Source of the DNA: Candidatus Thalassolituus haligoni
GTDB taxonomy: Bacteria > Pseudomonadota > Gammaproteobacteria > Pseudomonadales > Oceanobacteraceae
Direction: 5' to 3'
NCBI RefSeq assembly: GCF_041222825.1
Contig: NZ_CP139482.1
Location: 3,911,501 to 3,975,500 of the forward strand
Length of the DNA stretch: 64,000 nt
The notes beneath the pieces are model-generated. The model was not told the DNA's origin. It saw nothing but the letters and a program-made list of their open reading frames with translations, and searched no databases. The position numbers and the translations under genes were made by a program. Below, one piece after another: positions 9,701 through 35,685 of this stretch; position 1 is the first letter of the stretch; every line of letters starts with the position of its first letter.

Positions 9701-9801
9701 GTCCCTGTCCGTTTCGCTCCGTCCCTGTCCGTTTCGCTCCGTCCTTGTCCGTTTCGCTCCTGTCCCTGTCCGTTTCGCTCCTGTCCCTGTCCGCTTCGCG
9801 C
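9701..9801. repeat. Five tandem 20-21-bp repeats between dmpN and dmpO
   Basis: The unit GTCCCTGTCCGTTTCGCTCC is repeated at 9701, 9721 and 9741 with period 20, then at 9761 and 9782 with an extra T (period 21). Only the last copy and one internal base diverge. In the minus direction it reads GGAGCGAAACGGACAGGGAC. It lies inside the phenol-hydroxylase operon and must be transcribed. Confidence 0.9.
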
Positions 9802-9818
9802 CCACCACATCCGGTGGG
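9801..9818 (-). terminator. Hairpin directly after dmpN (attenuator candidate)
   Basis: CCCACC (9801-9806) pairs with GGTGGG (9813-9818) around a 6-base loop, one base past the dmpN stop. No T-run follows in the minus direction, so read-through into dmpO is expected. It may stabilise the upstream mRNA. Confidence 0.4.
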
Positions 9819-11371: not shown

Positions 11372-11641
11372 TCAAAGCACCCAGCTCAGCTCAAGCCGGT
11401 CTTCATCCTCATCCACGTTGCCACCCAGGGAAATCAGGTTCAGATGCAGTTCCTGCACGTCCCAATCACGGCCGAGTTTTTCTTCTACGGTTTCCCGCTT
11501 CACCACCATAAGGTTCTCCTGCTCCATGCGGATCATGGCGGGCTGGTAGATCACCGTGACTTCTGGGTTATCTTCTTCTACCGCTTCGACGATATAGCGT
11601 GAGACGTCGTTGTCTTGCAGGATCAAATACACTTTGGACAT
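11372..11641 (-). CDS. dmpM: Phenol hydroxylase activator protein (P2, DmpM)
   Basis: This 89-residue cofactor-free effector protein of the MmoB/DmpM family starts MSKVYLILQDND and contains VIYQPAMIRM. It binds the oxygenase and couples NADH oxidation to hydroxylation. DmpM is about 90 residues, so it is full length. It lies 11 bases downstream of dmpL and 52 bases upstream of dmpN. Confidence 0.93.
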   Translation of the reverse strand: MSKVYLILQDNDVSRYIVEAVEEDNPEVTVIYQPAMIRMEQENLMVVKRETVEEKLGRDWDVQELHLNLISLGGNVDEDEDRLELSWVL

Positions 11642-11652
11642 GGGGTTCCCCT

Positions 11653-12639: not shown

Positions 12640-12792
12640 AATTGACGTCCTGATTGGTTGTTGTTGTTTTCAGAGTCAGTAGCTACTGGTAAAAATGGCC
12701 AGATACGCGACATGTATGTATGGCGATTAACTGTGCATTTTCTGATCGCTTTTCACCCAGTGATGCCAACGCAGGCGAATATTCAATAGCTG

Positions 12793-13083
12793 CTAGTGGG
12801 TTCGGGAATGGTTATCAGCCATCAGCGTATCTTCGCCGTAGCGCCATTTCGCCGTTTCAGCATCCACTGTCTGCTTTTGTGCTTCGGTCATTTCGATGAC
12901 GTTATTGGCGCGACAAAAGGTCTCAAATACCGCTGGCGGCATAATAAGTTCGACAAACAGGGTCGGATCTCCAATAGCAAAATCGAATTCAACAAAGCGG
13001 GCACCTTCCGGGCTACGCACACGGATATAGCGAGTTGCTTCATTAAAATGGGTGTTTGAGGATTCATATTTGAGTTCATGCAT
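12793..13083 (-). CDS. dmpK: Phenol hydroxylase P0 assembly protein (DmpK)
   Basis: This 96-residue member of the phenol_hydrox_P0 family starts MHELKYESSNTHFNEATRY and contains PEGARFVEFDF. DmpK helps assemble the active iron-containing oxygenase. It is the first gene of the operon and lies 61 bases inside the sigma-54 promoter at 13144-13159. A short, diverged copy of its first codons and promoter occurs at about 30283-30490. The leader has an AATAATAAACAGG tract. Confidence 0.92.
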   Translation of the reverse strand: MHELKYESSNTHFNEATRYIRVRSPEGARFVEFDFAIGDPTLFVELIMPPAVFETFCRANNVIEMTEAQKQTVDAETAKWRYGEDTLMADNHSRTH

Positions 13084-13143
13084 ACTGAAATAACCTGTTT
13101 ATTATTTTTAGCTAACCAGTGATCTTCTGTACCCAGGTATATC

Positions 13144-13159
13144 AGCAAGACGTATGCCA
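13144..13159 (-). promoter_or_regulatory. Sigma-54 promoter of the phenol-hydroxylase operon
   Basis: On the minus strand this reads TGGCATACGTCTTGCT, matching the -24/-12 consensus TGGCAC-N5-TTGCT with GG and GC exactly 10 bases apart. It lies 61 bases before the dmpK start. Two enhancer dyads lie 60-107 bases further upstream, and dmpR is divergent, which is the classic DmpR-controlled arrangement. Confidence 0.88.
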
Positions 13160-13218
13160 CAAACAACGCTACATTTCAGGCCAGAACAGGGGCTATATCG
13201 CCGATATAACCCTCCGTA

Positions 13219-13266
13219 CCTGAGCAATTCATCAGGCGACCGAAATAGCCTCATGATATGATCAGG
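13219..13266. promoter_or_regulatory. Pair of DmpR-type upstream activating sequences
   Basis: Two dyads, CCTGAGCAATTCATCAGG (13219-13236) and CCTCATGATATGATCAGG (13249-13266), are spaced 30 bases apart, about three helical turns. They resemble the TTGATCAATTGATCAA enhancer sites bound by DmpR/XylR. Confidence 0.78.
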
Positions 13267-13385
13267 TCATGCGTTGCGGCGGTAACTGATATAATTAACC
13301 GATTCGATTCCGATGCAGCAAAAACAGAACCTGCTACATCGCATATGACCGTCGACGGCAATTCCAAAACAATAAAAAGATACCT

Positions 13386-15125
13386 ATGACAACTTCATCA
13401 GCGACATCAAATAACGTGCAGCCACCCGAAGTACCGGATGCCAAAGATCTGATTTCCCAAATCCGCTTTTGCCATGAAAAAGGCGAAATATGGCTGCAGG
13501 AAGCCCGCATGCTGCTGATTCATGCCAGTGATATGGGCATTCTGCGGGAGGAGCTGGTGACGTCCATGGGGATGGAACGGGCGCGGGGGTTTCTCATGCG
13601 TTTTGGCTACCAGTCAGGCCAGCGAGATGCCGAAGTCGCCCACAAAATACGCAGCCATATGTCTCTGGAACAGGGGTTTATGGCCGGGGTTCAGCTCCAT
13701 GCCATCGAAGGTATTGCACTGGTGGTCGCCAAAAAAGTGCAGCTGGATCCGTCGATCCATCATTTTTATGGTGAGTTCGACTGGCACGGCTCGTATGAGG
13801 CGGATCAGTATCTGGCCAAGCATGAGCTGTCTGACTCACCGGTGTGTTGGACGCTGCTGGGGTACGCCAGTGGTTATACGTCGGCCTTTCTGGGCATGCC
13901 CATTTTGTACAAGGAAGTGCAGTGTCGGGGCATGGGACATGAACACTGTTCAATTGTCGGCAAACCGGCAGAACAGTGGGAAGACCGTGAAGCCATGCAG
14001 CGGTTGATGACACCCGACCACCTCGCCGATGAGCTGTTCTCGCTGCAACAACAGGTCTGTCATCTGAAAGCCAGCTTCCGCCAGGGTGCACTGGATGACG
14101 ATCTGCTGACCAATTCAGTCGGTCAATCGGAAGCCTTTATGCAGGTGTGTCAGCTGATTCGCAAAGCCAGCCAGAGTCGGGCCACGGTGTTATTACAGGG
14201 AGAAACCGGCGTCGGCAAAGAGGTTGTCGCGCGCGGGCTGCATAACGCCAGCGATCGGGCCAATAAAGCGTTTATCGCCGTCAACTGCGCCTGTATTCCA
14301 CCGGATCTGATCGAGGCGGAATTGTTCGGAGTCGAAAAAGGCGCATTTACCGGGGCGACCGTCAGCCGTGAAGGCCGTTTTGAGCGGGCCAACGGTGGCA
14401 CTATTTTTCTCGACGAAGTCATCGAACTCTCCCCTCGCGCCCAGGCAACCTTGTTACGGGTTTTGCAGGAAAGTGAACTGGAGCGGGTCGGCGATAACCA
14501 GACCCGCGCCATTGATGTCCGAGTGGTCGCAGCCACCAACGAAGATCTGGAAAAAGCCGTCAAGGAAGGTCGCTTCCGGGCTGACCTGTTTTTCCGGCTG
14601 AACGTTTTCCCGGTGCGAATTCCACCACTACGCGAACGGCTACAGGACATTCCCCTGCTGGCGGAATATTTTCTCGAAAAATACCAGAACCTTTACCGTA
14701 AACAGCTGGCTGGCATCACCGACAAGGCCATGCAGTCGCTGATTCGCTACAAATGGCCAGGTAATATTCGCGAGCTGGAAAACATGATCGAGCGAGGCGT
14801 TATTCTCACCGACAACGGTACATCAATTGATCTGTGTAATCTGTTTCCATCGTTGATGGAACCGTCGCATCCGCTGAATGTAATCGACCAGAACGGTTCA
14901 CTGTCGGCCAGCACGTCCCAGCTGATTGTGCAGCAGAATCATATCCGCAGCCTGATCGACGGTGGTGTCGGGCTGGAAGAAGTAGAAAAACAGATGCTGC
15001 AACAAGCGATGGAACAATCCGCTAATAACATCACCCATGCAGCGCAGTTATTGGGTATCAGCCGGGCGGCCATGTCCTATCGATTAAAGAAGCTGAATGA
15101 TATGGAAAAGAACGATTCGCAGTAG
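13386..15125 (+). CDS. dmpR: Phenol-responsive sigma-54 activator (DmpR/MopR type)
   Basis: This 579-residue protein has an N-terminal sensor with a V4R domain (about 20-215), an AAA+ domain (Walker A GETGVGKE at 272-279, GAFTGA at 319-324) and a C-terminal Fis-type helix-turn-helix. By my alignment H105 and W133 match the phenol-contacting H106 and W134 of MopR. C154, E177, C180 and C188 match its zinc ligands. It should therefore sense phenol and switch on the divergent dmpK promoter through the sites at 13219-13266. The leader AAAACAATAAAAAG suggests Crc/Hfq control of the regulator itself. Confidence 0.94.
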   Translation: MTTSSATSNNVQPPEVPDAKDLISQIRFCHEKGEIWLQEARMLLIHASDMGILREELVTSMGMERARGFLMRFGYQSGQRDAEVAHKIRSHMSLEQGFMAGVQLHAIEGIALVVAKKVQLDPSIHHFYGEFDWHGSYEADQYLAKHELSDSPVCWTLLGYASGYTSAFLGMPILYKEVQCRGMGHEHCSIVGKPAEQWEDREAMQRLMTPDHLADELFSLQQQVCHLKASFRQGALDDDLLTNSVGQSEAFMQVCQLIRKASQSRATVLLQGETGVGKEVVARGLHNASDRANKAFIAVNCACIPPDLIEAELFGVEKGAFTGATVSREGRFERANGGTIFLDEVIELSPRAQATLLRVLQESELERVGDNQTRAIDVRVVAATNEDLEKAVKEGRFRADLFFRLNVFPVRIPPLRERLQDIPLLAEYFLEKYQNLYRKQLAGITDKAMQSLIRYKWPGNIRELENMIERGVILTDNGTSIDLCNLFPSLMEPSHPLNVIDQNGSLSASTSQLIVQQNHIRSLIDGGVGLEEVEKQMLQQAMEQSANNITHAAQLLGISRAAMSYRLKKLNDMEKNDSQ

Positions 15126-19473: not shown

Positions 19474-19489
19474 TGGCATATCGGTTGCT
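19474..19489 (+). promoter_or_regulatory. Sigma-54 promoter of the VanBA-like operon
   Basis: TGGCATATCGGTTGCT matches TGGCAC-N5-TTGCT, with GG and GC 10 bases apart. It lies 64 bases before the reductase ATG and is divergent from the second DmpR-family regulator. Confidence 0.82.
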
Positions 19490-20640: not shown

Positions 20641-21696
20641 ATGACAACAACGCAAAATCTCCCCTATCTGAGCAATATCTGGTACGTCGCAGCCCTGTCC
20701 ACCGAAGTCGATGATGAGGCCCTGTTCAGCCGCACCTTGCTGGACACCAGCGTCATGATCTACCGCCGCCAGGACGGCACCCCGGTTGCCTTGCGTGATC
20801 GCTGCCCACACCGTTTTGTGCCGCTGTCGCAAGGCAAGCGAGACGGTGACAGCGTGGTCTGCCCTTACCACGGCCTGAGCTTCGATTGCAGCGGCAAGTG
20901 CAACCACAACCCCCATGGCAACCAGCATATTCCCGAGGCAGCGGTGGTGCAGTCTTTCCCATTGGTGGAGCGTTATGGCTTCCTCTGGATCTGGATGGGC
21001 AACCAGCCAGCCAACCCGGACCTGATTCCCGACTATGGCCCGCTGGTTGATGGCCACCCGAACGGCGTCGGTTACACCTACATGCGCCGGGAATGCAACT
21101 ACGAGCTGATCAACGACAACGTGATGGATCTGAGCCACATTGACCATCTGCATGGTGAAATCATCACCACTCGCGGCAAACTGTCACCCCAGGTGCCGCA
21201 ACTGTCCGAAACAGCAGACACAGTGTCGGCCCGCTGGGAATGGGAACAGACACCACCCATGCTGATTTTTAACCAGTTCCTGCCAGCCCCCGAAGCCTCA
21301 GCACGGCATTTTATCGGTATTACCTGGAGCGCCCCGGCCAATATTCAATTGACGGTGGGTGCCACCCAGAACAATGACAGCCTGGATCTGCATCATTGTG
21401 TCGGTCAATACGACCTGCATACCTGTACTCCGGAAACGCTGAACTCAACTCACTATTTCTTTGGTACCCGGCGCAATCATCTGGAAGATGATGCGGAATT
21501 TAACGCCATGAAAACCAAAGCCATGCACGATGCCTTTGAAACCGAAGATGGCCCGGTGCTGGATGCAGTTCACCAGCAAATGGGCACCACCGACCTGTTC
21601 AGCCTGAAGCCGGTCTTGCTGCCCAGTGACATTGCCGCCGTCAAGGTGCGTCGCAAACTGGCTGAACAGATTACGCTGGAACATCAGCCATTATGA
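20641..21696 (+). CDS. VanA-like Rieske oxygenase (aromatic O-demethylase type)
   Basis: This 351-residue stand-alone alpha subunit has the Rieske ligands C55, H57, C74 and H77 and an iron motif N-D-N-x-M-D-L-S-H-x4-H around 160-175. Length and motifs match VanA, which demethylates vanillate to protocatechuate and formaldehyde. With the upstream VanB-like reductase it forms a two-component system. The substrate is not certain: the operon is behind a DmpR-family regulator and a sigma-54 promoter, which is unusual for vanillate demethylase. A methoxybenzoate or methoxyphenol is a reasonable guess. Confidence 0.87.
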   Translation: MTTTQNLPYLSNIWYVAALSTEVDDEALFSRTLLDTSVMIYRRQDGTPVALRDRCPHRFVPLSQGKRDGDSVVCPYHGLSFDCSGKCNHNPHGNQHIPEAAVVQSFPLVERYGFLWIWMGNQPANPDLIPDYGPLVDGHPNGVGYTYMRRECNYELINDNVMDLSHIDHLHGEIITTRGKLSPQVPQLSETADTVSARWEWEQTPPMLIFNQFLPAPEASARHFIGITWSAPANIQLTVGATQNNDSLDLHHCVGQYDLHTCTPETLNSTHYFFGTRRNHLEDDAEFNAMKTKAMHDAFETEDGPVLDAVHQQMGTTDLFSLKPVLLPSDIAAVKVRRKLAEQITLEHQPL

Positions 21697-21829: not shown

Positions 21830-23059
21830 TTATTCCCAGGCCCGCTCAGCGACTTCCTTCTCGGTGGGGACGATGATCTGACCAGCGATATTGGAAACCA
21901 CCCGAAAGTAGTCTTCCCGCAAACTCCCTTGCATCACCTGTTCCCGAGGCTTACCGGTCACCACGTACACCGACTGCACACTCAAGTGATCAAAACGCCG
22001 CCAGCTTTGCGGGTCCTTCAAACCAGTAAAGGTCAGCCCTTCAAGGCGTTTCGCCAGTGTCCGGGAATCCAGTGTGCCTGCTTCCTCGGCCACGCGCTGG
22101 TAGTGCCAGACAAGGCTATAGGCGGTAGCTGCCAGCGCCGACGGGTTGGTTTCGTAACGTGCAACATAAGCCTCGGTAAAACGCACACCATCGCCATAGC
22201 GGTAGTCTTTCGCGACCTGCCAGCTCCAGGGAACCGTCGCAATCACCCCTTCCAGCATGTCCGCTCCCACCGCGCGGGCCACACTGAGCGTCATATTGGG
22301 AGCGACGATTTTTAACGCCGTGGTCAGCCCCAATTCATGGATCACCTGCAATGCCTTGGCCAGGTCATCACCCGCTTGCACCAGTACCAGCACCTCGGCC
22401 CCGTCATCCCTGGCTTGCTCAACGGCGGCGATAAACTCCTTGCGGCGCGGGCCAGGAAAACGGGTTAACGACTGTCCGTGCACACTGAGATCGGTGGTAT
22501 GGGTGAATTTGCGCAGAATCTGCTCTGTCATTAATCCCCCAGGGCTATCGCTGGTGATATAAAACATCTTCTTGCCGCCAAGCGACTGGTTGATATAAAA
22601 CGCCAGCGTCTTGGCTGCCATCCAGGCATCGTAAGAGGCATAAAACACCGTCGGCCGTTGTATACGGTCGCCGGGCGAATGAAACAGGGTATCGAAATAC
22701 AGCAGGTTGGCATTGGCCGCCGCCGTGGCGGTTGCCTGCGGTTGCAGCGAGCTGCCAAAAGCCATGCTGACACCCGCGTTGACCAGTTCGCTCACATGTT
22801 CCTGTTCCTTACCTTTGCGGCCAGAGGCCGACAGCAGCAACTCCAGCGGCTTGCCCAGCACGCCACCTGCCGCGTTGATTTCATCAATCGCCAGCAAGGC
22901 TCCACGCGCCTGATCGATACCCAGATTTTTGTAGCGTCCGGTATTCGGAAACGTCATGCCGATTTTGACGGTATCGGCGGCCACGACCGGTAACACCAGT
23001 AGCGCCAATAACCAGACACAGCCTCTGAACGAGGCCGTCAGTAACCCAATCATATTCAT
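21830..23059 (-). CDS. Periplasmic binding protein (Leu/urea/amide ABC type)
   Basis: This 409-residue protein has a signal peptide (residues 1-28, cleavage near VVAADTVKIG) and a type I periplasmic-binding fold of the Peripla_BP_6 kind (KIGMTFPNTGRY, DEINAAGGVLGKPLEL). Such proteins feed branched-chain amino-acid, urea or aromatic-acid ABC transporters or act as sensors. No permease or ATPase gene is adjacent. It is instead the last gene of the ferredoxin-YCF48-RND-DUF1302-DUF1329 row, so it may deliver ligand to that system or to a transporter elsewhere. The substrate is unknown. Confidence 0.85.
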   Translation of the reverse strand: MNMIGLLTASFRGCVWLLALLVLPVVAADTVKIGMTFPNTGRYKNLGIDQARGALLAIDEINAAGGVLGKPLELLLSASGRKGKEQEHVSELVNAGVSMAFGSSLQPQATATAAANANLLYFDTLFHSPGDRIQRPTVFYASYDAWMAAKTLAFYINQSLGGKKMFYITSDSPGGLMTEQILRKFTHTTDLSVHGQSLTRFPGPRRKEFIAAVEQARDDGAEVLVLVQAGDDLAKALQVIHELGLTTALKIVAPNMTLSVARAVGADMLEGVIATVPWSWQVAKDYRYGDGVRFTEAYVARYETNPSALAATAYSLVWHYQRVAEEAGTLDSRTLAKRLEGLTFTGLKDPQSWRRFDHLSVQSVYVVTGKPREQVMQGSLREDYFRVVSNIAGQIIVPTEKEVAERAWE

Positions 23060-23137: not shown

Positions 23138-24451
23138 CTAACGACCGGCAGCGCGCAATTGCTGTACGGTAAACTTGGACGCCGGACTCAATTCAGGGTT
23201 AACAATGCCCTTGAATTGACCCGTGGTGCAGTGATCCGCCTGCATATCCACCATTGAGAACGAATCATCGATCGACACACCCGATCCCTTGTTAATGGCC
23301 AGATGGTGGTCTGGATGCGTCTGACCAATGGTGAAGGTTTTCCACATTGCCCCGTTGCGGTCATAGGTGATGTTTCGCGGGATCACGTACGTCTGGGCGT
23401 CGATATAATGCTCGCGACGACCAACCGGATGGTTGGGATCGGTTGGCTCCGACCAGAGGACGTAGGTCTTGCGCAGCTGCCAGGTGATCTTCGGGAAACA
23501 ACCGCCCTTGCCACCAAAATCGACAAACTGATACCCCTCATCGTCCACTGGCTCAGCGGCCAGTGCCAAGTCGTTGTGGTTATACATCGGCGACAACATC
23601 CACTGGGTGCCCTTGTAGGTCCACTTCATGTCACTGATGCGGCCACCATAACCTTCAAAGTCTTCGATCATGATGTCGGTACCGAGGAAGGCATCCGTGG
23701 TTTGACCAGACGACAAGCGACGCACCCGGCGCTGGAAACCCAGATACAGGTAGGCGTTATCGTTCTTGGTATCGTCCTGGAACTTGTGAATCAGCAGCTG
23801 GGTGTTCTTGACGTCAAACGGTTCCAGCACCTGGGCATAGGTGCCACGGAACAGGCTGGACGGGTTCGGGGTGATTTCCGGGTAAGGTTCCTGGGCAGTA
23901 CGGCGGGAGAAGTTCAGGAAGTTGAAATTGAACTTGAAGGTACGCTCAACCTTGCCGGACGACATGTTTTTCATGGTCCAGTAGAACGGCATAATGGCGG
24001 CAGAATCGCCCCAGTTGTAGCCGTACTTGTAGTTCCAGGCCAGCTTTTCACCGGCTCGGGGATCATCCAGGGATGGCTCCTGCGGGAACGGTCGACCGGC
24101 ACCCGGTGCATTGATTTCACCCACTTTTTCTCCCAGCGACGCCTGCCCGGCATACTGGCGAGTGGCATCGACATACGACTTGTGGAGATCAAACGAGGTC
24201 GTTGCGCCGACGGTAATTTCATAATCACCGTTCTTGATAAACATATAGGTGGCCGGATCCAGATACGACACCACCGAGTCGACGTTGCTGGCGTTGATCA
24301 CCATACCGGGTTTGATACCGGCAACCTCCGGGACGCCCCCTTTCGCATACGGATAAAACGATTCCTGAATCACCGCTTCCGGCACTGGGGCGGCCTCGAC
24401 GGCCAACGCTGGGCCAGCCAGCACGGCTATTAATGCAATCTGCTTGTACAT
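23138..24451 (-). CDS. DUF1329 periplasmic/outer-membrane-associated protein
   Basis: This 437-residue protein has a short signal peptide (MYKQIALIAVLAGPALAVEA). The body matches the DUF1329 family (motifs WNYKYGYNWGDSA and YIDAQTYVIPRNITYDR, and a late Cys pair). The family is exported and recurs next to DUF1302 and RND genes near hydrophobic-substrate catabolism in Pseudomonas-like bacteria, but its biochemical role is not established. It lies 21 bases downstream of the DUF1302 gene and is almost certainly co-transcribed. A carrier for a hydrophobic compound between membranes is an inference from context. Confidence 0.88.
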   Translation of the reverse strand: MYKQIALIAVLAGPALAVEAAPVPEAVIQESFYPYAKGGVPEVAGIKPGMVINASNVDSVVSYLDPATYMFIKNGDYEITVGATTSFDLHKSYVDATRQYAGQASLGEKVGEINAPGAGRPFPQEPSLDDPRAGEKLAWNYKYGYNWGDSAAIMPFYWTMKNMSSGKVERTFKFNFNFLNFSRRTAQEPYPEITPNPSSLFRGTYAQVLEPFDVKNTQLLIHKFQDDTKNDNAYLYLGFQRRVRRLSSGQTTDAFLGTDIMIEDFEGYGGRISDMKWTYKGTQWMLSPMYNHNDLALAAEPVDDEGYQFVDFGGKGGCFPKITWQLRKTYVLWSEPTDPNHPVGRREHYIDAQTYVIPRNITYDRNGAMWKTFTIGQTHPDHHLAINKGSGVSIDDSFSMVDMQADHCTTGQFKGIVNPELSPASKFTVQQLRAAGR

Positions 24452-24472: not shown

Positions 24473-26086
24473 TCAGAAGCCGTAACGAACGGTCAGCTGG
24501 AGTTCATCTTCCTGGTTGGCAACACCAATCGGGCCATTGCTAAAGCGGGCCAGTGGCTCCCACTGCGGCACATCGGGTTCACCGGCCAGAGCGCTGGCGG
24601 ACCATTCAAATTTCTGTTTGCCGCCTTCCTTGATATTCAGAGCGAGGTTGACCAGCCAGTGATTGTCTGGCTGATACGAAATACTCGGGGCAATCGCGGT
24701 GGCTTCGGCCTTGACATCGTGAGCAACCAGCAGCTGTGGACAGAGGCGGTTGTTCATATAGAAGCCCTTGAAGAGCAAGGTGCCGGTCCAGTTTTTCTCG
24801 GCGTCCGGCATATCGTCTTCGTGATCCAGTACGTGTTGACCAAACACCTGCATCGACAGCAGGAACGCGCTGCGGGTGCCGAGCGCCGGAATAATGATGT
24901 TCTTGTCCATACCAATCACGTAACGGGCAATATCGGTTTCCTTGTGCCCATCGAGATCACGCGCCAGCTCTTCACCCTGGGTGTAGGCTGCTTCCACACG
25001 CCAGGTGGCATCGGTATTCATATCGTAATAATCGAGCGAGCCGCCGAGCAGGCTGACGCGAGGGAAGTAAATATCAAACACACCATCGGCGGCCGGGGTG
25101 CCGGGATCTGGCCCACGCCAGTGAATGGAAGGCAGCTGCTGGAAGTAACGCAGCGCATTCACCGAGAAGGTGGCATCGCCATAGACCCCTTCCCACTTCA
25201 GCCCACCCTGGGTATTTTCCAGGCTGCGATCCGGCAACTTGACGTCGTGAATGATCGGAATGGTGCCCGCCAGGTAAGACGAGAAGAAGCAACCGGCATC
25301 CAGAATGGCGTATGCCTGACCACAGGTGCCCAGGTTGTTGGGACGGAACTTGTCGAAGTTCCAGATCAGCTGGAAGTTCATGTCGTCAAAAACGCTGTTG
25401 GCACCCATCAGCAGGTCGGCTTTCAGCATCCACTGGGGAATACGAATGTCTTCCAGTTCGTCGTAAATATTGTGACGGGAATAATCCACCGGGTTGGTGG
25501 TATCCAGTACCCGGAACAGGTCAGTACGCCCCCAGATCACTTGCTGTTTACCCAGCCGGACGGTCAGCTGGTCTTCACCGACATCGCGGGTCGCATCGAT
25601 ATACAACTCACGGATAAAATCCAGTTCGTCGTTAAAGTCAGGGGTGCGGACGTCTTGCGAATCGTCATCCATATAGCCATGCAGGTTATCGCACAGCTGC
25701 TCATCGTTCTCACACGGCAGCGGCACTCCTGCGGAAAGCAACAGGCTGGACGCACCGCCATCCGGGTGCCAGTTTTCGCCCAGATAGTCTTGTTCGGCAT
25801 CCTTGCCAAATTCATCACTGTTGAGGTCGTAAACACCATCGTAGGTAGCACGTAATACGCCATTTAACGTGACGTTGTACCAGCTGCCACTGGTGTCGAC
25901 AGGCCGTATAAATTCAGCTTGTACGGTGTTGCGGAACTTGGATAACCCAACCTCGTCCCGATAGTAAGTCGCGTTCTCTCCAAACCCGCTCCAGCTCGTC
26001 TCATTGGCCACCACCAACGATGGACTGACAGCGGCTGCAACAGCAAGGGCTATCAGGGATCGTTTGGCCAGCATGATTCCAGGCAT
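24473..26086 (-). CDS. DUF1302 outer-membrane-type protein
   Basis: This 537-residue protein has a signal peptide (MPGIMLAKRSLIALAVAAAV, cleavage near VVANETSW). The body is rich in alternating aromatic strands and ends in the hydrophobic/aromatic VRYGF expected of an outer-membrane beta-barrel. It contains the family segments LRLGKQQVIWGRTD-like and DGVYDLNS. I chose the ATG at 26086 because CGGAGGT lies just upstream; the longer frame to 26128 lacks such a site. The leader AAAATAACAATAAACC is Crc/Hfq-like. It is co-located with DUF1329 and the RND protein, with which it probably forms one envelope system. Confidence 0.87.
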   Translation of the reverse strand: MPGIMLAKRSLIALAVAAAVSPSLVVANETSWSGFGENATYYRDEVGLSKFRNTVQAEFIRPVDTSGSWYNVTLNGVLRATYDGVYDLNSDEFGKDAEQDYLGENWHPDGGASSLLLSAGVPLPCENDEQLCDNLHGYMDDDSQDVRTPDFNDELDFIRELYIDATRDVGEDQLTVRLGKQQVIWGRTDLFRVLDTTNPVDYSRHNIYDELEDIRIPQWMLKADLLMGANSVFDDMNFQLIWNFDKFRPNNLGTCGQAYAILDAGCFFSSYLAGTIPIIHDVKLPDRSLENTQGGLKWEGVYGDATFSVNALRYFQQLPSIHWRGPDPGTPAADGVFDIYFPRVSLLGGSLDYYDMNTDATWRVEAAYTQGEELARDLDGHKETDIARYVIGMDKNIIIPALGTRSAFLLSMQVFGQHVLDHEDDMPDAEKNWTGTLLFKGFYMNNRLCPQLLVAHDVKAEATAIAPSISYQPDNHWLVNLALNIKEGGKQKFEWSASALAGEPDVPQWEPLARFSNGPIGVANQEDELQLTVRYGF

Positions 26087-26208
26087 GTTATACCTCCGGT
26101 TTATTGTTATTTTCGCAGCGCCAACCACTCTGGATATGAAGAATCCAGGCAGCAGGCAGCCGATTCCCGACCTCGACCAGGCGAAGCGCGTGAATTTTTT
26201 ATTAACGG

Positions 26209-28626
26209 TTAATCGGCGTGAATAATACCGTCTTCGTCAGTGTACGATTGACAGATAAACGCCGGTTTGAATACCAGTATCCAGCTGGGCACCAGTAACA
26301 TGGCGGCCAATCCGTTTAATACCACCATAACAATCAATAACAGTGCGGCATCGGCCTGAAACCTGAGGTCCGATAACAACACCCACATAACGATACCGGA
26401 TATCAGCGTAATCGCGGTGAAACTCACCGCCAGACCGGTGGTTCTCACCGCTTGTCGAACCGCAATATTGATATTATGCGAACGCACCATTTCACTACGA
26501 ATCCGGTCCATCATATAAATCGAATAATCGATACCCACCCCGACACCGACGGCAATAATAGGTACAGTATTGATATTAATACCCATCCCCATCACGCCCA
26601 TATAGGCATACGTCAGCGTGGTGGCGAACAGCATCGCCATAAACATCATTACCCCTGATATAATCGAGCTGTAAAACAAGGCGACAAACACAAAGATCAG
26701 AATAAACACCAGCGGCAAAACCCACAGGTTGGTTTCGTAAGCCGCTTCGTTCATGGCGGCGGTTACGCCAATAGTGCCACCGGCCAGGCGAATACTCAGC
26801 CCTTCAACCTCGTCGCCATGGGCGGCGATCCATTCCTTCACCATATAAATGGCACGACGAATAGTCTCGCCCTGGTGATCCTTGTAATAAAACACCAGGT
26901 TGGCAATACGTTCGTCGGTATCAACAAATTCGTTCAGCGCGCCAGGAATCGGGTTCGACATCATGTAGGTAAACATCAGCCCGCCGACGTACTGCTCATC
27001 ATCGGGAATTTGCAGCCAGCGCGGGTCATTGGTGTGCAACAAGCGGTTGACCTGCATCACCAGATCGGGGATGCCCTTGGCCCCGCCCACGTCCGGGTCA
27101 GTCAGCATATGGCGTTCCAGATCGGCCAACGCCGCCAGTACTTCCGGACGTTTGATGCCGCCCTTGCTGTCGGTTTCGGCAATGATGTAAAGCTCTTCCG
27201 AACCGGGAAAACTATTGTTAATCGCGCTGGAAGACAGGTTGTAGTCGTGATCCTGATAAAGAATCGGCGAGCCGGGTTCCGATTCACCAATCACCACCAG
27301 CGACGAGGCATAAAACCCGCCACACAACAGCAAACCGCCCAGCCACAACGCCCGGCGTGCAGATTGGGTATCGCTGACCAGATCGGCGCAGACAAACCCG
27401 ACATGACGAAACAGGTTGTGCTTAATGCGGGTGTTGCGTGGCCGAGGCAATACCGACAGCAACAGCGGCACCGCCAACAATACGGTAATGATAATGCTCA
27501 ACGCCCACAACGAGGCGTAATGGGCCAGCTTGGTATTCAGTGGGATCGAGCCAACCGCAATCAGCAACAGGCCAATGGCATCCGAGACCACACCCAGGCT
27601 GCCCGGCCGGAACAGGTTTTCAAAGGTGGTGCGGGCGGCCAACTGGTGATGATCCTTGCCATCCGGGGTGGCCTCATCCAGCTCATTGATTTCGGCATAG
27701 TAGCGCTCAACGATCTGGATGCCGTGCGACATCGCCCGTGCCGAAATCAGAAACGGAATCACCATGCCCAGCGGGTCAATGTTGTAGCCAAACAGCGAGA
27801 TAATACCAATGCCCCAGATGGTCGACACCAGCACCGCCGCCAATGGCACCAGCACGCCGTATAATTTGCGAAAGTAGAACACCAGCAAGCCGATCATGAT
27901 CACCGCAGTAAACAGAAAGATCTCGATAATCTGATCCAGATACTGGTAAGCCCAGCCCACCAGCATCGGCTGGCCGGTAACGTGAATGCGGTATCCAGGT
28001 TGCGCTTCGGTGGCCCGAATCGCCTGAATTTCATTAAACGTGGCCTCGTAATCAAGTTTGCCTTCGTTTAACTGCGCCTTGATCAACGCCATACTCTTGT
28101 CCGGACTGACCAGTGGGCCATACACCCGAGGATCCGAGACCACGTCTTTTTCCAGCTTTGCCAGCGCCGCCGCCGAAAGATCACCGCCCTGGGGGTCGAA
28201 ATAGGATTGGGAATTGACATTACCTTCCGGCGTCATCCACACCTTGCGGGAGTTGCGGTGCGTAACGGAAGTCACCAGATTGTGGTTCACCCCGGTCAGG
28301 CTATCCACCGCCATCGTTACCCGGTGAATTTTCTGCAGCGCCTCATTGGAAAACACGTCACCGTCGAGTACTTCAACTCCCACCACAATCACATTGGCAC
28401 CACCAAAACTGTCTTTGATGCTGTTGTGCAGCTCGATATACGGGTGTTCCTGCGGCAACAGGTCGGCAAAATCAGAATACATTTTAACGGCTGGAATCTG
28501 CGCCGCAAAAAACAGCGTAATCAGTAAAATAGCCGCCAGAATGGTACGAGGATGCTTAAAAGCCGACGTCTCTAGCACATGCAGAAAATGCGTTGCCTTG
28601 TGGGCGTCTGCGGAATACTGGTTCAT
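26209..28626 (-). CDS. RND/MMPL-superfamily transporter
   Basis: This 805-residue protein has the two-fold RND layout: a transmembrane helix at residues about 28-48, a large periplasmic loop (about 50-225), five helices (about 230-400), a helix near 430, a second periplasmic loop (to about 610) and five C-terminal helices. The motif GVGVGIDYSIYMMDRIRSE near 690 is the conserved TM4-like segment with Asp. This COG1033/MMPL type acts without a membrane-fusion protein and moves lipids or hydrophobic compounds. It is coupled to the BNR lipoprotein upstream (36-base gap). Direction of transport is not known. Confidence 0.9.
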   Translation of the reverse strand: MNQYSADAHKATHFLHVLETSAFKHPRTILAAILLITLFFAAQIPAVKMYSDFADLLPQEHPYIELHNSIKDSFGGANVIVVGVEVLDGDVFSNEALQKIHRVTMAVDSLTGVNHNLVTSVTHRNSRKVWMTPEGNVNSQSYFDPQGGDLSAAALAKLEKDVVSDPRVYGPLVSPDKSMALIKAQLNEGKLDYEATFNEIQAIRATEAQPGYRIHVTGQPMLVGWAYQYLDQIIEIFLFTAVIMIGLLVFYFRKLYGVLVPLAAVLVSTIWGIGIISLFGYNIDPLGMVIPFLISARAMSHGIQIVERYYAEINELDEATPDGKDHHQLAARTTFENLFRPGSLGVVSDAIGLLLIAVGSIPLNTKLAHYASLWALSIIITVLLAVPLLLSVLPRPRNTRIKHNLFRHVGFVCADLVSDTQSARRALWLGGLLLCGGFYASSLVVIGESEPGSPILYQDHDYNLSSSAINNSFPGSEELYIIAETDSKGGIKRPEVLAALADLERHMLTDPDVGGAKGIPDLVMQVNRLLHTNDPRWLQIPDDEQYVGGLMFTYMMSNPIPGALNEFVDTDERIANLVFYYKDHQGETIRRAIYMVKEWIAAHGDEVEGLSIRLAGGTIGVTAAMNEAAYETNLWVLPLVFILIFVFVALFYSSIISGVMMFMAMLFATTLTYAYMGVMGMGININTVPIIAVGVGVGIDYSIYMMDRIRSEMVRSHNINIAVRQAVRTTGLAVSFTAITLISGIVMWVLLSDLRFQADAALLLIVMVVLNGLAAMLLVPSWILVFKPAFICQSYTDEDGIIHAD

Positions 28627-28662: not shown

Positions 28663-29619
28663 TTAACGCAATTGATTACGGGCCACGACAACCAGACCAC
28701 CGCTGCCTCCCACCAGAATCAGCTGCTCGCCCACGAGTACCGCATCGCGAAAATAGGCACCATGGCCAACACCACTGACGGTGCGCCACTGCTCACCGGA
28801 TCGACGCAACAGCAGACCGCTCTCCCCCAGTGCCATCATCTCGTTGCCCACTTGCTGCAGGGCATAAACCGGTGCCGCCACACCGGTTGGCTCGGCCACC
28901 CAGTGCTGGCCGCCGTCACGGGTGTGCAGAATCGAGCCGCCCAGACCCGCCACCCAGCCTTCTCCAGAGGTCTCGAATAATGCTCCCTGAGGGTAAAAGT
29001 CATCATCAATCAGCCCGGCAGACTGCCAGCTGAGACCGCCATCACTGGTGTGGTACACCAGCCCCAACTCGGCCACGGCGTAGGCTTCAGAGGTGGAGAC
29101 AAAATCGATCTGGGTGAAGATGGCGTCTTCGCCCAGGCTTTGCTCCTCCCAGGACGCACCGCCATCCAGGCTGCTGAGCAAGGTACTGAAACTGCCACCG
29201 ACCCAGAGTGTATTATCGGGGGCGCAATCCAGCGTCAGCAGCGATTCCAGCGTCGGTATTGGTACAGGACGCCAGTGTTCACCCTTGGCGTCACTGACCC
29301 AGAGCTGGCGATTATTCGACAGCGCGTAAAAGCGCTGATCCGGACAGACTTCAATATCAATCAGATTAGCGTCTCGTCCCAATGCCAGCCGCTGCCAGCT
29401 GTCCGCAGAGGCCCGTGGGCGCACCAGCACCACGCCAAAATTCCCCACCGCCACCACTACCTCATCATTGGCCGCTACCGCCATCAACTGATCGGTACGT
29501 TGAACCGGCTGGCGATTGTTTTCCGCCACCCGCTCCATATTCAGACGTGCCTCACAACCATACAGGCCGACAACCAGCAAAAAGGCACAACAAACCCTGA
29601 CAGTCATAAACATAGTCAT
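28663..29619 (-). CDS. YCF48/BNR-repeat lipoprotein (beta-propeller)
   Basis: This 318-residue protein has a lipoprotein signal peptide ending in the lipobox LYGC (about residues 19-22). Sialidase/BNR-like blade motifs repeat through the body (SLDGGASWEE, TSDGGLSWQS, TRDGGQHWVA). This is the photosystem-stability-factor-like (YCF48/HCF136) fold, which in heterotrophs accompanies RND/DUF1302/DUF1329 genes. It may cap or scaffold the transporter on the periplasmic side. Three in-frame ATG codons lie within 13 bases, so the start is uncertain by a few residues. Confidence 0.85.
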   Translation of the reverse strand: MTMFMTVRVCCAFLLVVGLYGCEARLNMERVAENNRQPVQRTDQLMAVAANDEVVVAVGNFGVVLVRPRASADSWQRLALGRDANLIDIEVCPDQRFYALSNNRQLWVSDAKGEHWRPVPIPTLESLLTLDCAPDNTLWVGGSFSTLLSSLDGGASWEEQSLGEDAIFTQIDFVSTSEAYAVAELGLVYHTSDGGLSWQSAGLIDDDFYPQGALFETSGEGWVAGLGGSILHTRDGGQHWVAEPTGVAAPVYALQQVGNEMMALGESGLLLRRSGEQWRTVSGVGHGAYFRDAVLVGEQLILVGGSGGLVVVARNQLR

Positions 29620-29697
29620 ATCGCCATTTAAAAAATAAAAGCCCGTCCCACCTGTTATTCAGGCGAGCATCATTACGAGCAGAAAAATTACATCAAA

Positions 29698-30006
29698 TCA
29701 TGCCGCCTGATTAAATCGACGCGCCAGCTTGCCAACAACCTCCAGGGTTATATCACTGCGGGGATATACCCGACAGGCAAGGACAATATTTTTTTGTTGA
29801 TCTTCGGCACTGATATGACAACGAGCCATCGGCCCCGCTTCGTATTCGCCGGAGGTAATACGGACTTTGCAGATACCGCAACCACCACCACGACAACCAG
29901 CAGGCACCGCACGGGAGTTGGATCTCAGCAACCCGGTGAGCAAGGAATCCGAATCACGACAAATAACCGTGCGGTCACAGCCGGAGACAGAAATTGAGTA
30001 ATGCAT
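29698..30006 (-). CDS. XylT/DmpQ-like [2Fe-2S] ferredoxin
   Basis: This 102-residue plant-type ferredoxin has the cluster motif CRGGGCGIC (about 38-46) and a fourth Cys in VLACRVYP. Its closest recognisable group is XylT/DmpQ/NahT, which re-reduces the iron of catechol 2,3-dioxygenase inactivated by substituted catechols. In most meta operons the gene sits just before the dioxygenase; here it heads an envelope-protein operon. The leader AATAAAAATAAAAAG is A-rich. Upstream lie LysR-type elements (30085-30129) and, further away, a duplicated sigma-54 promoter. Confidence 0.86.
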   Translation of the reverse strand: MHYSISVSGCDRTVICRDSDSLLTGLLRSNSRAVPAGCRGGGCGICKVRITSGEYEAGPMARCHISAEDQQKNIVLACRVYPRSDITLEVVGKLARRFNQAA

Positions 30007-30084
30007 GGCGACCTCGACTTTTTATTTTTATTCAGCAAGTCTGATGGTGTTAGAAAGCTACAATAACTCGACAGAAATATACTC

Positions 30085-30129
30085 TCTAATACTATTTGCA
30101 GACCGGCTTAATACTGATTAGGTATTAGA
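30085..30129. promoter_or_regulatory. Putative LysR operator pair before the ferredoxin operon
   Basis: TCTAATACTATT (30085-30096) and GATTAGGTATTAGA (30116-30129) reproduce the pair at 16551-16598 with identical 33-base spacing. The proximal element is 79 bases from the ferredoxin ATG. Confidence 0.5.
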
Positions 30130-30157
30130 ACATACAGCGGGCTACAACAAAGCGGAT

Positions 30158-30316
30158 TTACGACTGTCTGGCCCGAGTTTCCAGCGCCTGCTGCCATGCC
30201 CGACCAGCCGTTATCACGCCAATCGCCCAATCTGCAGGACGGATATTGGCTGGCAGTACAAAAAATAACGAGTTGCCAATATGGGTTTTCGAATATTCAT
30301 ATTTGAGTTCAAACAT
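30158..30316 (-). pseudogene. Chimeric 52-codon remnant: DmpK start fused to a tautomerase-like tail
   Basis: From an ATG at 30316 the first 13 codons (MFELKYEYSKTHI) copy the start of DmpK (MHELKYESSNTHF). The last about 27 codons (RPADWAIGVITAGRAWQQAL and on to a TAA at 30158) copy the C-terminus of the tautomerase-like protein encoded at 30596-31018 (PADWAIGGITADRARKQELE). Neither domain is complete, so this is a recombination scar or leader peptide rather than an enzyme. It lies directly behind the duplicated phenol-hydroxylase promoter and would be the first frame on that transcript. Confidence 0.72.
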
Positions 30317-30364
30317 ACGGAAAAAACCTTTTTATTATTGTTGGCCAATGACTCCCGCAATATC

Positions 30365-30380
30365 AGCAAGACGTATGCCA
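30365..30380 (-). promoter_or_regulatory. Duplicated sigma-54 promoter upstream of the ferredoxin operon
   Basis: On the minus strand this reads TGGCATACGTCTTGCT, identical in all 16 bases to the dmpK promoter at 13144-13159. It points toward the ferredoxin-RND operon, whose first gene starts 359 bases downstream. Flanking sequence from about 30283 to 30495 is recognisably similar to 13058-13275. Confidence 0.82.
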
Positions 30381-30438
30381 TAAACGACACCACATATCAG
30401 GCCATAACTCGGGTATATCAGTGCGATAACCCTCATCG

Positions 30439-30486
30439 CCTGAGCAATTCATCAGGCGGCTCAAACAGCCTCATTATATGATCAGG
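30439..30486. promoter_or_regulatory. Duplicated DmpR enhancer pair
   Basis: CCTGAGCAATTCATCAGG (30439-30456) is identical to the first dmp enhancer, and CCTCATTATATGATCAGG (30469-30486) differs from the second by one base. The 30-base spacing and the 59-base distance to the promoter (60 in the original) are kept, so the copy looks functional. Confidence 0.78.
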
Positions 30487-30595
30487 TAAGACGCTATTAC
30501 CGTAACGGATATGACGCCAGCATGGTGCGCCGCTGTTTGACTTGACCCGCCAACAGATGACCCAGATCACTGCGACAGATCGGATTGACTACTCA

Positions 30596-31018
30596 CTACT
30601 CCTGCCCGGCCCGCGCTTCCAGCTCCTGCTTCCGTGCCCGATCCGCCGTAATCCCGCCAATCGCCCAGTCTGCCGGACTGACACGGGTGCAAATACCCCG
30701 GATTTCCATCCGATCAATCCCCAGGCTGGTGACCAGAATCGCGGTAAAAGCAGCATGCAGCTCCTGCACCTGACTGGTAGCACGGTCTTGCAGCACAAAA
30801 AACTGGTAGAAAGGGGCCAACAGCGTGGCGTCAGGCAAACCCAGCCAGCCACCACCCGCCGCAATCTGAGCCGCTGGCAATATCTGGATATAGGCACGAA
30901 TACGCTCAACCGGCGCAGCCAGTATCTCGGCAAACACCCGGCAGGCTTCGGTGCAAATCACCTCGCGGGATTCCCGCACCGCGTCGGTATCAGGCAATGT
31001 AAAAATAATAACCGGCAT
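30596..31018 (-). CDS. Tautomerase-superfamily protein (fused 4-oxalocrotonate-tautomerase-like)
   Basis: This 140-residue protein starts Met-Pro (MPVIIFTLPD), giving the N-terminal proline used as general base in this superfamily. Length and two beta-alpha-beta halves (second half near VTSLGIDRMEIRGICTRV) fit the cis-CaaD/fused 4-OT type rather than the 62-residue DmpI. Substrate unknown. It is followed upstream by an SDR gene on the same strand (80-base gap), suggesting a two-gene unit. A partial copy of its last about 27 codons lies at 30158-30245. Confidence 0.65.
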   Translation of the reverse strand: MPVIIFTLPDTDAVRESREVICTEACRVFAEILAAPVERIRAYIQILPAAQIAAGGGWLGLPDATLLAPFYQFFVLQDRATSQVQELHAAFTAILVTSLGIDRMEIRGICTRVSPADWAIGGITADRARKQELEARAGQE

Positions 31019-31097
31019 TTTAATGACCTCTCATCAACAACATAATCAGGACACTGTTACAGCAAGACAAACAGGAACAGCAGCACACACAGGCCCG

Positions 31098-31853
31098 CTA
31101 TGGCAGGCCACGGCGACGGCCACTATCCAGCATCAACGTCGAACCCGTCATCGAGTCCGCCTCGACGGCCAGCAGCGTTTTAACGGCCCAGGCCACTTGC
31201 TCCGGAGTGGTAAAAGCCCCGATAGACGATTCTGCTTGCATTTCTTCCAGCACCTTCTCCACTTCAATACCGCGCTGCTCGGCACGGGCTGTGGCCACGT
31301 GCCGCAAGCGTTCGGTATCAGCCGGCCCCGGCGCAATCGTGTGAGCCGTGACGCCACGCGGCCCCAGAGCCAGACTGATTTGACGTACCACGTTAAACAA
31401 CGCCGCGTTGGCCACTCCGGCAGAAGCCGCATAAGCCGTCGGCTCCAGACCATAATGACCGGCAATCGCGACCAGCCGCGAATGGGGCTCAAGGTACGCA
31501 TCGACGGCACGACACAACCGCATAAAGCCACCCACCTTGATATTGACGGCATCCACCATGGTGGCCGTCGGTGCCACCAAAATGCCACCAGCCACCCCGA
31601 CACCCGGCCCATGCACCACCAGCTGAACCGGGCCAGTCACCGCATGGTGAATGATTTCTATCGACGAATCCTCAGAGATATCAGCCGCGACGGTACGGAT
31701 GCCGGGATACTGTTCTTTCAGTGCATCCAGCGAATTCTGACGGCGGGCAACCGCCAGTACTTGTAACCCTTCGGCCAGCAGTGTTTTGACAATGGCCTGA
31801 CCAAAAGCACCGGTTGCCCCCACGACCACAGCGGTTTTCTGACGATTATCCAT
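31098..31853 (-). CDS. SDR-family protein lacking the catalytic lysine
   Basis: This 251-residue Rossmann protein has the cofactor motif GATGAFG (12-18) and the SDR fold (VVHGPGVGVAGG in place of NNAG; a C-terminal MTGSTLMLDSGRR). At the active site the Tyr141 motif reads YAASA, so the Lys of YxxxK is Ala145. It may bind NAD(P) without normal dehydrogenase activity or use a divergent mechanism. The start is preceded by GGAGAGACATC. It lies 80 bases upstream of the tautomerase gene and may share its transcript. Function unknown. Confidence 0.8.
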   Translation of the reverse strand: MDNRQKTAVVVGATGAFGQAIVKTLLAEGLQVLAVARRQNSLDALKEQYPGIRTVAADISEDSSIEIIHHAVTGPVQLVVHGPGVGVAGGILVAPTATMVDAVNIKVGGFMRLCRAVDAYLEPHSRLVAIAGHYGLEPTAYAASAGVANAALFNVVRQISLALGPRGVTAHTIAPGPADTERLRHVATARAEQRGIEVEKVLEEMQAESSIGAFTTPEQVAWAVKTLLAVEADSMTGSTLMLDSGRRRGLP

Positions 31854-31920
31854 GATGTCTCTCCAACGCCTGCGTCGTGCGCAGGTTTGTTATTTTTAGA
31901 AGCGTTAATAACGTGTAGAA

Positions 31921-31966
31921 GGCACCGCTGCAAACGCCACGAGCGCCGTCGTTTTCAGCGGTGCCT
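31921..31966. repeat. Long hairpin upstream of the SDR gene
   Basis: GGCACCGCTG (31921-31930) pairs with CAGCGGTGCC (31957-31966), with a further AAACG/CGTTT pair inside. There is no T-run. It sits between the MITE-like element and the SDR gene and may be a terminator or leader structure. Confidence 0.6.
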
Positions 31967-31978
31967 CAGGTGTACCCC

Positions 31979-32121
31979 AGGAGCCTGTCGGACTTAGGCG
32001 TTCGTCGCGAGGGAAAGACTGATTTGAGGCGAATAGTGGTTCTATTTAACAAGAATTTGCTCACAAAAGAGCCAGATTCAGCTTTTCCGCAGTAGAGCAG
32101 CCCTAAGCTCGACAGATTCCT
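31979..32121. mobile_element. MITE-like element, 143 bp, with 20-bp terminal inverted repeats
   Basis: The left end AGGAGCCTGTCGGACTTAGG (31979-31998) and the reverse complement of the right end (AGGAATCTGTCGAGCTTAGG, 32102-32121) match at about 16 of 20 positions. The ends resemble those of IS elements with CTGTCGnnCTTAG termini. There is no coding capacity inside, so a transposase would have to act in trans. I see no certain target-site duplication. Confidence 0.55.
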
Positions 32122-32250
32122 AGACTAAGGAGATAGTAAAATACCTTCCAATACCCTTTGGAAACGCTCTTCATACCTGAAAAGAAGTACCCTTCCCCAT
32201 CGCAGCAGGCACTGCCAGAAAAGCCGGGCCGTGACCGGAAGGGCAGTGAT

Positions 32251-34340: not shown

Positions 34341-35661
34341 TGCCGCCAGAGAGGGCCGCTGTGCCCGCCAACGGCGCTGATAACAACGCTATCTTTCCTC
34401 CTGGGAGGGCCGCCGTGCCCGCCAATGACGCTGATAACAACGCTATATTTCCTCCTGGGAGGGCCGGGCCGCTGTGCCCGCCAAGTGGCATTGAGAACAA
34501 CGCTATATTTCCTCCTGAGAGGGCCGGGCCGCCTTGCCCGCCAGTGGCGTTGACAACAACGCCAGGCTGCTGGCGAGCGTGGCAGCTCGCGCTCCCGGAA
34601 TCGAAGTCCGCCAACGGCGTTGATAACAACGCCAGGCCGCTGACGAGCGTGGCAGCTCGCGCTCCCGGAATCGAAGCCCGCCAACGGCGTTGATAACAAC
34701 GCTATATTTCCTCCTGGGAGGGCCGGGCCGCTGTGCCCGCCAATGACGCTGATAACAACGCCAAGCTGCTGCGAGCGTGGCAGCTCTCGCCCCCGGAATC
34801 GAAGCCCGCCAATGACGCTGATAACAACGCTAAGCTGCTGCGAGCGTGGCAACTCGCGCCCCCGGAGTCGAAGCCCGCCAATGACGCTGATAACAACGCT
34901 AAGCTGCTGCGAGCGTGGCAACTCGCGCTCCCGGAATCGAAGCCCGCCAATGGCGCTGAGTTAATTTGCATTGGGAGGGCCGCTGTGCCCGCCAATGGCG
35001 CTGATAACAACGCCAAGCTGCTGCAAGCATGGCAGCTCGCGCCCCCGGAATCGAAGCCCGCCAGTGGCGTTGACAACAACGCCAGGCTGCTGGCGAGCGT
35101 GGCAGCTCGCGCCCCCGGAGTCGAAGCCCGCCAATGACGCTGATAACAACGCCAGGCTGCTGGCGAGCATGGCAGCTCGCGCTCCCGGAGTCGAAGCCCG
35201 CCAATGGCGCTGATAACAACGCCAGGCCGCTGACGAGCGTGGCAGCTCGCGCCCCCGGAATCGAAGCCCGCCAGTGGCGTTGACAACAACGCCAGGCTGC
35301 TGGCGAGCGTGGCAGCTCGCGCCCCCGGAGTCGAAGCCCGCCAATGACGCTGATAACAACGCCAGGCTGCTGGCGAGCATGGCAACTCGCGCTCCCGGAA
35401 TCGAAGCCCGCCAAGTGGCGCTGATAACAACGCCAGGCTGCTGGCGAGCATGGCAGCTCGCGCTCCCGGAATCGAAGCCCGCCAATGACGCTGATAACAA
35501 CGCCAGGCTGCTGGCGAGCGTGGCAGCTCGCGCTCCCGGAATCGAAGCCCGCCAACGGCGTTGATAACAACGCTATCTTTCCTCCTGGGAGGGCCGGGCC
35601 GCTGTGCCCGCCAGTGGCAGCTCGCGCTCCTGAAATCGAAGCCCACCAACGGCGTTGACGC
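34341..35661. repeat. Modular hairpin-repeat array 1 (about 1.3 kb)
   Basis: By my count there are about 20 junctions of the core CGCCAAYGRCGYTGATAACA, which itself forms GGCGTT-GATAAC-AACGCC hairpins. Between cores lie interchangeable modules: A (about 70 bp; stem GCGAGC-N6-GCTCGC and CCCGGAATCGAAG), B (about 59 bp; CCTCC-TG-GGAGG and GGGCCGGGCC) and a rarer GAGTTAAT module. The order is about B-B-B-A-A-B then mostly A. Long open frames on both strands here are by-products of the repeats. The array fills the space between the convergent LysR and LuxR genes. Confidence 0.9.
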
Positions 35662-35685
35662 TTACACCAGAACGTACTTGCGCTC

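Follow-up and report, generated by a model that had tools for sequence, protein, structure and literature searches.

A copy of the dmpK sigma-54 promoter block stands before a ferredoxin and probable efflux operon in Candidatus Thalassolituus haligoni

The promoter block of dmpK has almost certainly been duplicated in the genome of Candidatus Thalassolituus haligoni, with the second copy residing in front of a ferredoxin gene and an efflux cassette of the same strand. We consider it probable that the dmpK promoter was duplicated into this ferredoxin/efflux operon, that its regulatory elements were kept, and that a DmpR-type protein drives both promoters. The window referred to throughout is the whole stretch of DNA analyzed, 64 kb of a single-contig 4.38-Mb assembly (G000:C1:3911501-3975500, where G000 is the window's own genome).

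13027..13292, minus strand: source block, the dmpR-dmpK intergenic promoter region with the first codons of dmpK
12793..13083, minus strand: dmpK (Pfam PF06099)
30265..30512, minus strand: copied dmpK promoter block (enhancers, sigma-54 promoter, leader and dmpK start), homologous to 13027-13292

Direct comparison of the two regions by BLASTN aligned 30512-30265 with 13292-13027 at 74.4% identity over 266 columns with an E value of 7.6e-47, which rules out chance similarity of the blocks. When 30283-30512 was searched against the whole 4.38-Mb genome, two places only were returned, the query itself and the dmpK block (77%, E 1.7e-40). The copied block includes the dmpK start codon (ATG at 30316) and the first codons of the gene, and the two homologous blocks lie in the same orientation approximately 17.2 kb apart. 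The homology thus runs past the functional motifs (266 columns, 74%) and has its source within the genome, at one of the two places. A preliminary description of this DNA, made from the sequence alone, had claimed that 30283-30495 reproduces the dmpK promoter block, and had proposed an alignment of the two as a check on chance motif identity; the block proved larger than it had suggested, and the homology reaches into the flanks.

Other sources and carriers of the block were also sought. No third copy, as might mark a mobile element as carrier, is present in the genome, and a DNA search of 142 genomes, including the window's own, matched the block in that genome alone. A distant plasmid search with 29600-32000 matched five records, in the SDR gene part only. 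A second dmpKLMNOP-like cluster resides outside the window (G000:C1:3881168-3885925), its DmpN 82% identical and a LysR-like gene adjoining; this second phenol hydroxylase cluster was rejected as the source, as no 0-mismatch sigma-54 site stands before it.

Three regulatory elements can be recognized within the copy.

30469..30486, minus strand: upstream enhancer UAS1, CCTGATCATATAATGAGG, one base different from dmpK UAS1 (13249-13266)
30439..30456, minus strand: upstream enhancer UAS2, identical to dmpK UAS2 (13219-13236)
30365..30380, minus strand: sigma-54 -24/-12 site, TGGCATACGTCTTGCT, identical to 13144-13159

Read along the minus strand, both blocks show UAS1, 12 bp, UAS2, 58 or 59 bp, TGGCATACGTCTTGCT, the leader and the ATG. 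The -24/-12 site of the copy fits TGGCAY-N5-TTGCW with 0 mismatches, and upstream of it stand two 18-bp imperfect palindromes whose starts are 30 bp apart, as they are in the dmpK block. Paired palindromic sites with 29-42 nt between centers are reported for XylR/DmpR factors (PMC6449761), a range into which the 30-nt spacing of this enhancer pair falls. UAS2 is nearer to the promoter than the usual 100-200 nt given in the same source, but stands at the same distance as at dmpK. The identical promoter, the one identical enhancer and the single change in the other were all as first described, as was the spacing of 30 bases between enhancers; the gap from UAS2 to -24 is 58 bp in the copy and 59 bp at dmpK rather than 59 and 60, the same one-base difference under another way of counting.

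Divergence between the blocks is unevenly distributed. Bases within the elements are identical at 51 of 52 positions, compared with 49 of 71 in the rest of the interval from UAS1 to -12, where a gap accounts for one of the 22 differences; the Fisher p of 1.3e-5 for this comparison is indicative and partly post hoc, because the element borders came partly from the finding itself. A pattern written from the four enhancer sites of the two blocks occurs genome-wide, at up to one mismatch, at those four sites only, so the scan speaks solely to the absence of further close sites. This distribution suggests that the regulatory parts of the copy have likely been retained under selection, and the earlier impression of diverged intervening bases around selected elements is upheld by these counts and by the enhancer pairs of congeneric genomes.

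All three congeners compared (G005, G002 and G004) have two CCT...AGG-like imperfect palindromes of 18 bp in the dmpR-dmpK gap, and in each case exactly 30 bp separate one start from the other. Relative to the enhancers of the window, these sites carry 0, 1 and 4 mismatches to UAS1 and 4, 5 and 4 mismatches to UAS2 in G005, G002 and G004, respectively, the left end of UAS2 in G002 reading CTT. Measured start to start, UAS2 and -24 are 77 bp apart in G005, 90 bp in G002 and 77 bp in G004, compared with 77 bp at the dmpK promoter of the window and 76 bp in the copy, and the -24/-12 site of G004 has one mismatch to the consensus. The dmpK promoters of G005 and G002 align with the blocks of the window over 50-52 columns only, and that of G004 gives no alignment at E 1e-3. 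In contrast, 266 columns of the copy can be aligned with the dmpK block of the window, which makes the copy younger than the splits from these congeners. The copy was also to be looked for in related genomes, and it is present without a single difference in an Oceanobacter MAG contig (L033, CAJXTI010000070.1), in which the genes of the locus match at 96-100% protein identity over the matched pieces. This confirms the arrangement, but a block without differences gives no independent evidence of constraint. In the same contig, the binding-protein gene matches as two overlapping pieces in different frames (11609-12845), perhaps through a frameshift or an assembly error.

The surroundings of the copy contain the following features.

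30596..31018, minus strand: full tautomerase-like gene, 140 aa, with relatives in G005 and in L034, a locus from the named-genome scan
30159..30243, minus strand: second, partial copy of the tautomerase 3' end, 85 bp, 81% identical to 30597-30681
30160..30316, minus strand: 52-codon chimeric ORF, the dmpK start in frame with tautomerase C-terminal codons

The copied block sits between two copies of the 3' end of the tautomerase gene, whose product matches NCBIfam 4-oxalocrotonate tautomerase models below their cut-offs. The gene order in G005 is SDR, tautomerase, ferredoxin, YCF48 and RND, and the 162-bp gap between its tautomerase and ferredoxin genes contains no sigma-54-like site and no UAS; a UAS-like sequence with 3 mismatches does precede the SDR gene of G005, without a sigma-54 site there. 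In L034, the tautomerase stop directly adjoins the ferredoxin match. The DNA past the second tautomerase piece has AAATAGTATTAGAG in common with the G005 gap and aligns with it when forced, with nothing significant by BLASTN between the two. The two duplicated pieces have diverged to a similar extent (74-77% for the promoter block and 81% for the tautomerase end), which fits one event, and the simplest reading is a single old event by which the dmpK promoter arrived here and the tautomerase end was doubled. The spacer at 30513-30595 has no full match elsewhere in the genome, where only resemblances of 16-30 nt at E 0.009 or worse were found. Within this spacer, which runs from the tautomerase stop to the copied block, a piece of 25-30 nt resembles a repeat found at at least 12 places in the genome. 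The chimeric ORF, in which a few codons derived from dmpK precede those of the tautomerase, is putative and is open in three distinct sequences, that of the window and two in the protein collection, one 92% identical and one 98% identical, the latter being the representative of a cluster that may include the window's own protein.

Downstream of the block, the following genes are encoded.

29698..30006, minus strand: 2Fe-2S ferredoxin (Pfam Fer2), the first full gene behind the copied promoter
28663..29619, minus strand: YCF48-like protein, AmeC-like (Pfam PF14870)
26209..28626, minus strand: RND (MMPL) transporter, AmeD-like (Pfam PF03176)
24473..26128, minus strand: DUF1302 protein, AmeA-like (Pfam PF06980)
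23138..24451, minus strand: DUF1329 protein, AmeB-like (Pfam PF07044)
21830..23059, minus strand: periplasmic binding protein (Pfam PF13458), the last gene of the presumed operon

These genes are consecutive on one strand with gaps of 21-80 bp, and four adjacent members score above the cut-offs of PF06980, PF07044, PF14870 and PF03176, the composition of an AmeABCD-type cassette. The best NCBIfam model for the RND protein is HAE3 (TIGR00921), at 133 bits and under its cut-off of 352. The operon probably pumps toxic aromatics out of the cell. A further box, GTATTRGARRGTAT, is present on the minus strand before the ferredoxin gene (30079-30092), between the copied block and that gene, and before the SDR gene (32141-32154), and G005 has similar sequences in the two corresponding positions. 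The search pattern was derived from the sites themselves, and chance alone predicts 0.85 matches at up to 2 mismatches. Some other regulator, perhaps of the LysR type, may bind this box, and another promoter may drive the same genes.

This box bears on the first alternative, in which the block would be a decaying relic without function and the operon would be controlled from another promoter, for example through GTATTRGARRGTAT and a LysR-type regulator. Consistent with that account are the agreement of only 49 of 71 positions outside the elements, the GTATTRGARRGTAT boxes, which have similar sequences in G005, the LysR gene found inside the related operon of L034, and the G005 tautomerase-ferredoxin gap, which lacks a sigma-54-like site. 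A relic would be expected to lose elements and flanks equally, yet the 30-bp phasing and all but one of the 52 element bases persist, and the copy reproduces the geometry of congeneric dmpK promoters. We therefore regard decay as unlikely and a working, retained promoter as the preferred reading.

The regulator presumed to act at both promoters is encoded beside the source block.

13386..15125, plus strand: DmpR-type sigma-54 activator (Pfam XylR_N, V4R, Sigma54_activat, HTH_8), presumed regulator of both promoters

This protein has the domains of the DmpR family, namely XylR_N, V4R, an AAA+ sigma-54 interaction domain and a Fis-type HTH, and its best solved relative is CapR/DmpR (6iy8, 558 bits). 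In an alignment with 6iy8 and relatives, it keeps the residues matching His100, Trp128 and Cys151/Glu172/Cys177/Cys185 of DmpR, which are described as the phenol anchors (His100 and Trp128) and the zinc ligands (PMC7264223); a second source agrees on the His-Trp pair (PMC10715001). Identity with MobR was considered and rejected: the best NCBIfam match is NF041906, a model of type 'exception', at 731 bits, and as this is below the cut-off of 999 the protein is not called MobR. The whole genome encodes one sigma-54 gene and five XylR_N regulators. DmpR-dependent transcription from the copy is likely on the basis of the copying itself, the unique UAS sites, the retained elements and the congener geometry, which together favor the control by a DmpR-type regulator that was originally proposed.

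With five such regulators available, both promoters could instead be served by a different XylR_N protein. Three distant ones (L084, L085 and L086) also keep the His/Trp anchors and the zinc ligands, so that the acting regulator is inferred from proximity. Nonetheless, in G005, G002 and G004, as in the window, the UAS pair adjoins the DmpR-type gene, the distant XylR_N genes are approximately 66 kb or more away, and the other regulator within the window (17539-19317, minus strand) has Arg at the position of the phenol-anchoring His. Assignment to another of these proteins is quite improbable against this background, and the neighboring DmpR-type protein is preferred. The 17539-19317 regulator faces a sigma-54 site of its own, TGGCATATCGGTTGCT (19474-19489, plus strand), which stands before genes for a reductase (19554-20525) and a VanA-type Rieske oxygenase (20641-21696). 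Least probable is that recent gene conversion, rather than selection, explains the likeness of the elements: homologous blocks in the same orientation some 17.2 kb apart could recombine, but the identity does not form one tract, each of the identical elements of 16-18 bp being separated from the next by sequence that has diverged.

Under the preferred reading of a retained and regulated copy, a segment with two enhancers, the sigma-54 promoter, the leader and the first codons of dmpK would have been duplicated after the split from the examined congeners, and would have landed, together with a second tautomerase 3' end, between the tautomerase and ferredoxin genes of an SDR-tautomerase-ferredoxin-ameCDAB-like operon. 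Neutral parts would then have diverged, with no loss of the enhancers, of their 30-bp phasing or of the -24/-12 site. In the presence of phenol or a related effector, the 13386-15125 protein would bind both enhancer pairs, and RNA polymerase with sigma-54 would switch on the phenol hydroxylase operon and, as one presumed transcript, the ferredoxin/efflux cassette in parallel. Ferredoxins of the XylT/DmpQ type reactivate catechol 2,3-dioxygenase; the ferredoxin encoded here may do the same, with the efflux cassette lowering the toxic load. If this is correct, a whole two-enhancer sigma-54 promoter has been copied in a manner that restores or strengthens co-regulation of degradation and efflux. 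The two blocks form a natural pair of paralogous sigma-54 promoters, and the drift of their spacers reveals the positions at which selection likely acts in a promoter of the DmpR type.

The copying of a promoter to a new gene in the same genome is known in prokaryotes as promoter propagation or promoter reuse. In the present case the copied promoter is of the sigma-54 type with two enhancers, its source can be traced, leader codons came along with it, and a pattern of constraint is visible. A limited literature search by title found no published promoter duplication of this kind, which is weak evidence.

Phenol-sensor control of such cassettes has precedents. In Betaproteobacteria, genes of COG4447, COG1033, PF07044 and DUF1302 were predicted to be under AphR, AphS or AphT, and a role in coping with toxic aromatics was suggested for them (PMC6449761). 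The AphR (Burkholderia sp. 383), AphS and AphT regulons are predicted to include the same four-gene cassette next to aromatic genes; in the excerpted text of that source the sites are not described as copies of a phenol hydroxylase promoter, whereas the locus here is a demonstrable duplicate with dmpK codons (PMC6449761). The AmeABCD system of Castellaniella defragrans, in which deletion of ameABCD lowered monoterpene tolerance, has the same components, DUF1302 (AmeA), DUF1329/LolA (AmeB), COG4447 (AmeC) and RND HAE3 (AmeD), but is tied, as far as the excerpt goes, to monoterpene metabolism and not to phenol; the present locus differs from it in the ferredoxin in front, the periplasmic binding protein behind and the gene order (PMC6394551). 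EtpR of Aromatoleum aromaticum EbN1 is a DmpR-like protein with sigma-54 motifs before both degradation and putative solvent-efflux clusters, and was suggested to serve both, in an anaerobic p-ethylphenol pathway with no promoter duplication described in the excerpted account (PMC4630880). In addition, DUF1302 and DUF1329 genes are present in a Zoogloea phenol hydroxylase cluster (PMC7012976). Given the Betaproteobacterial predictions (PMC6449761) and EtpR (PMC4630880), control of the cassette by a phenol sensor is not a new idea; the contribution of this locus is the route, a copied dmpK promoter.

Among 192 genomes, including the window's own, YCF48 was found at E < 1e-50 in six, and all six are among the 11 that encode DmpN at E <= 1e-60, an overlap with a chance probability of 7e-9 if relatedness is ignored. 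In all five other order-level relatives with a close YCF48, the fetched 40 kb contains both the cassette and phenol hydroxylase. Of the remaining DmpN genomes, G004, G115 and G160 have no close YCF48; the cassette of G002, also a DmpN genome, is cut by a contig end, and in G187 a weaker YCF48 (E 3.7e-21) shares a contig with DmpN. L034 contains a catechol dioxygenase and no DmpN match within its 20.9 kb. A class-wide draw of 369 genomes yielded eight loci outside the window's own genome with YCF48 at E below 1e-96, weaker matches in G440, G340 and G451 being left out. DmpN lies in the fetched stretch at four of the eight (G310, one of two G538 loci, G533 and G281) and not in that of G436 or the other G538 locus, while the contigs of G490 (8.9 kb) and G198 (15.4 kb) are too short for their neighborhoods to be judged.

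Promoters of the cassette itself were also compared. Perfect sigma-54 sites within 500 bp of YCF48, accompanied by a one-mismatch UAS-like palindrome, occur at 3 of 14 other loci (G079, G139 and G045), against an overall 15 sites in 1,052,620 nt (0.007 per 500 nt), a total that includes those three, and these promoters show no sign of being duplicates of the dmpK promoters in the same genomes. At the other 11 loci, G005 among them, the 500 bp before YCF48 yielded no sigma-54 site, in a scan that would not reach the promoter of the window, as this lies higher up, in front of the ferredoxin gene.

The preliminary description had viewed the event as promoter capture, with the implication that an envelope-transport operon foreign to phenol was brought under its control, and this implication is not supported: the cassette resides beside phenol hydroxylase in five of five order-level relatives and at four of eight class loci, it has sigma-54/UAS promoters of its own at 3 of 14 loci, and its control had been predicted earlier (PMC6449761). 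Re-wiring, or reinforcement, describes the event better, the aromatic-efflux operon being part of the phenol cluster. We lean slightly toward a broader view in which the cassette has come under the phenol sensor by lineage-specific routes, namely adjacency with possible read-through, its own sigma-54/UAS promoters (in three families) and duplication of the dmpK promoter. The locus itself would tie the poorly understood YCF48-RND-DUF1302-DUF1329 cassette to phenol sensing in Gammaproteobacteria, extending the prediction made for Betaproteobacteria.

Finally, the window contains further repeats and paralogues. Two catechol 2,3-dioxygenase paralogues (5766-6701 and 15458-16393, minus strand) are 70-79% identical in DNA over matched pieces, and five head-to-tail repeats of approximately 20 bp occupy the DmpN-DmpO gap (9699-9813). 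Two arrays of related repeats (families D1-D5), with spacings of about 59, 70 and 130 bp, are located at 34353-35670 and 41550-43064.
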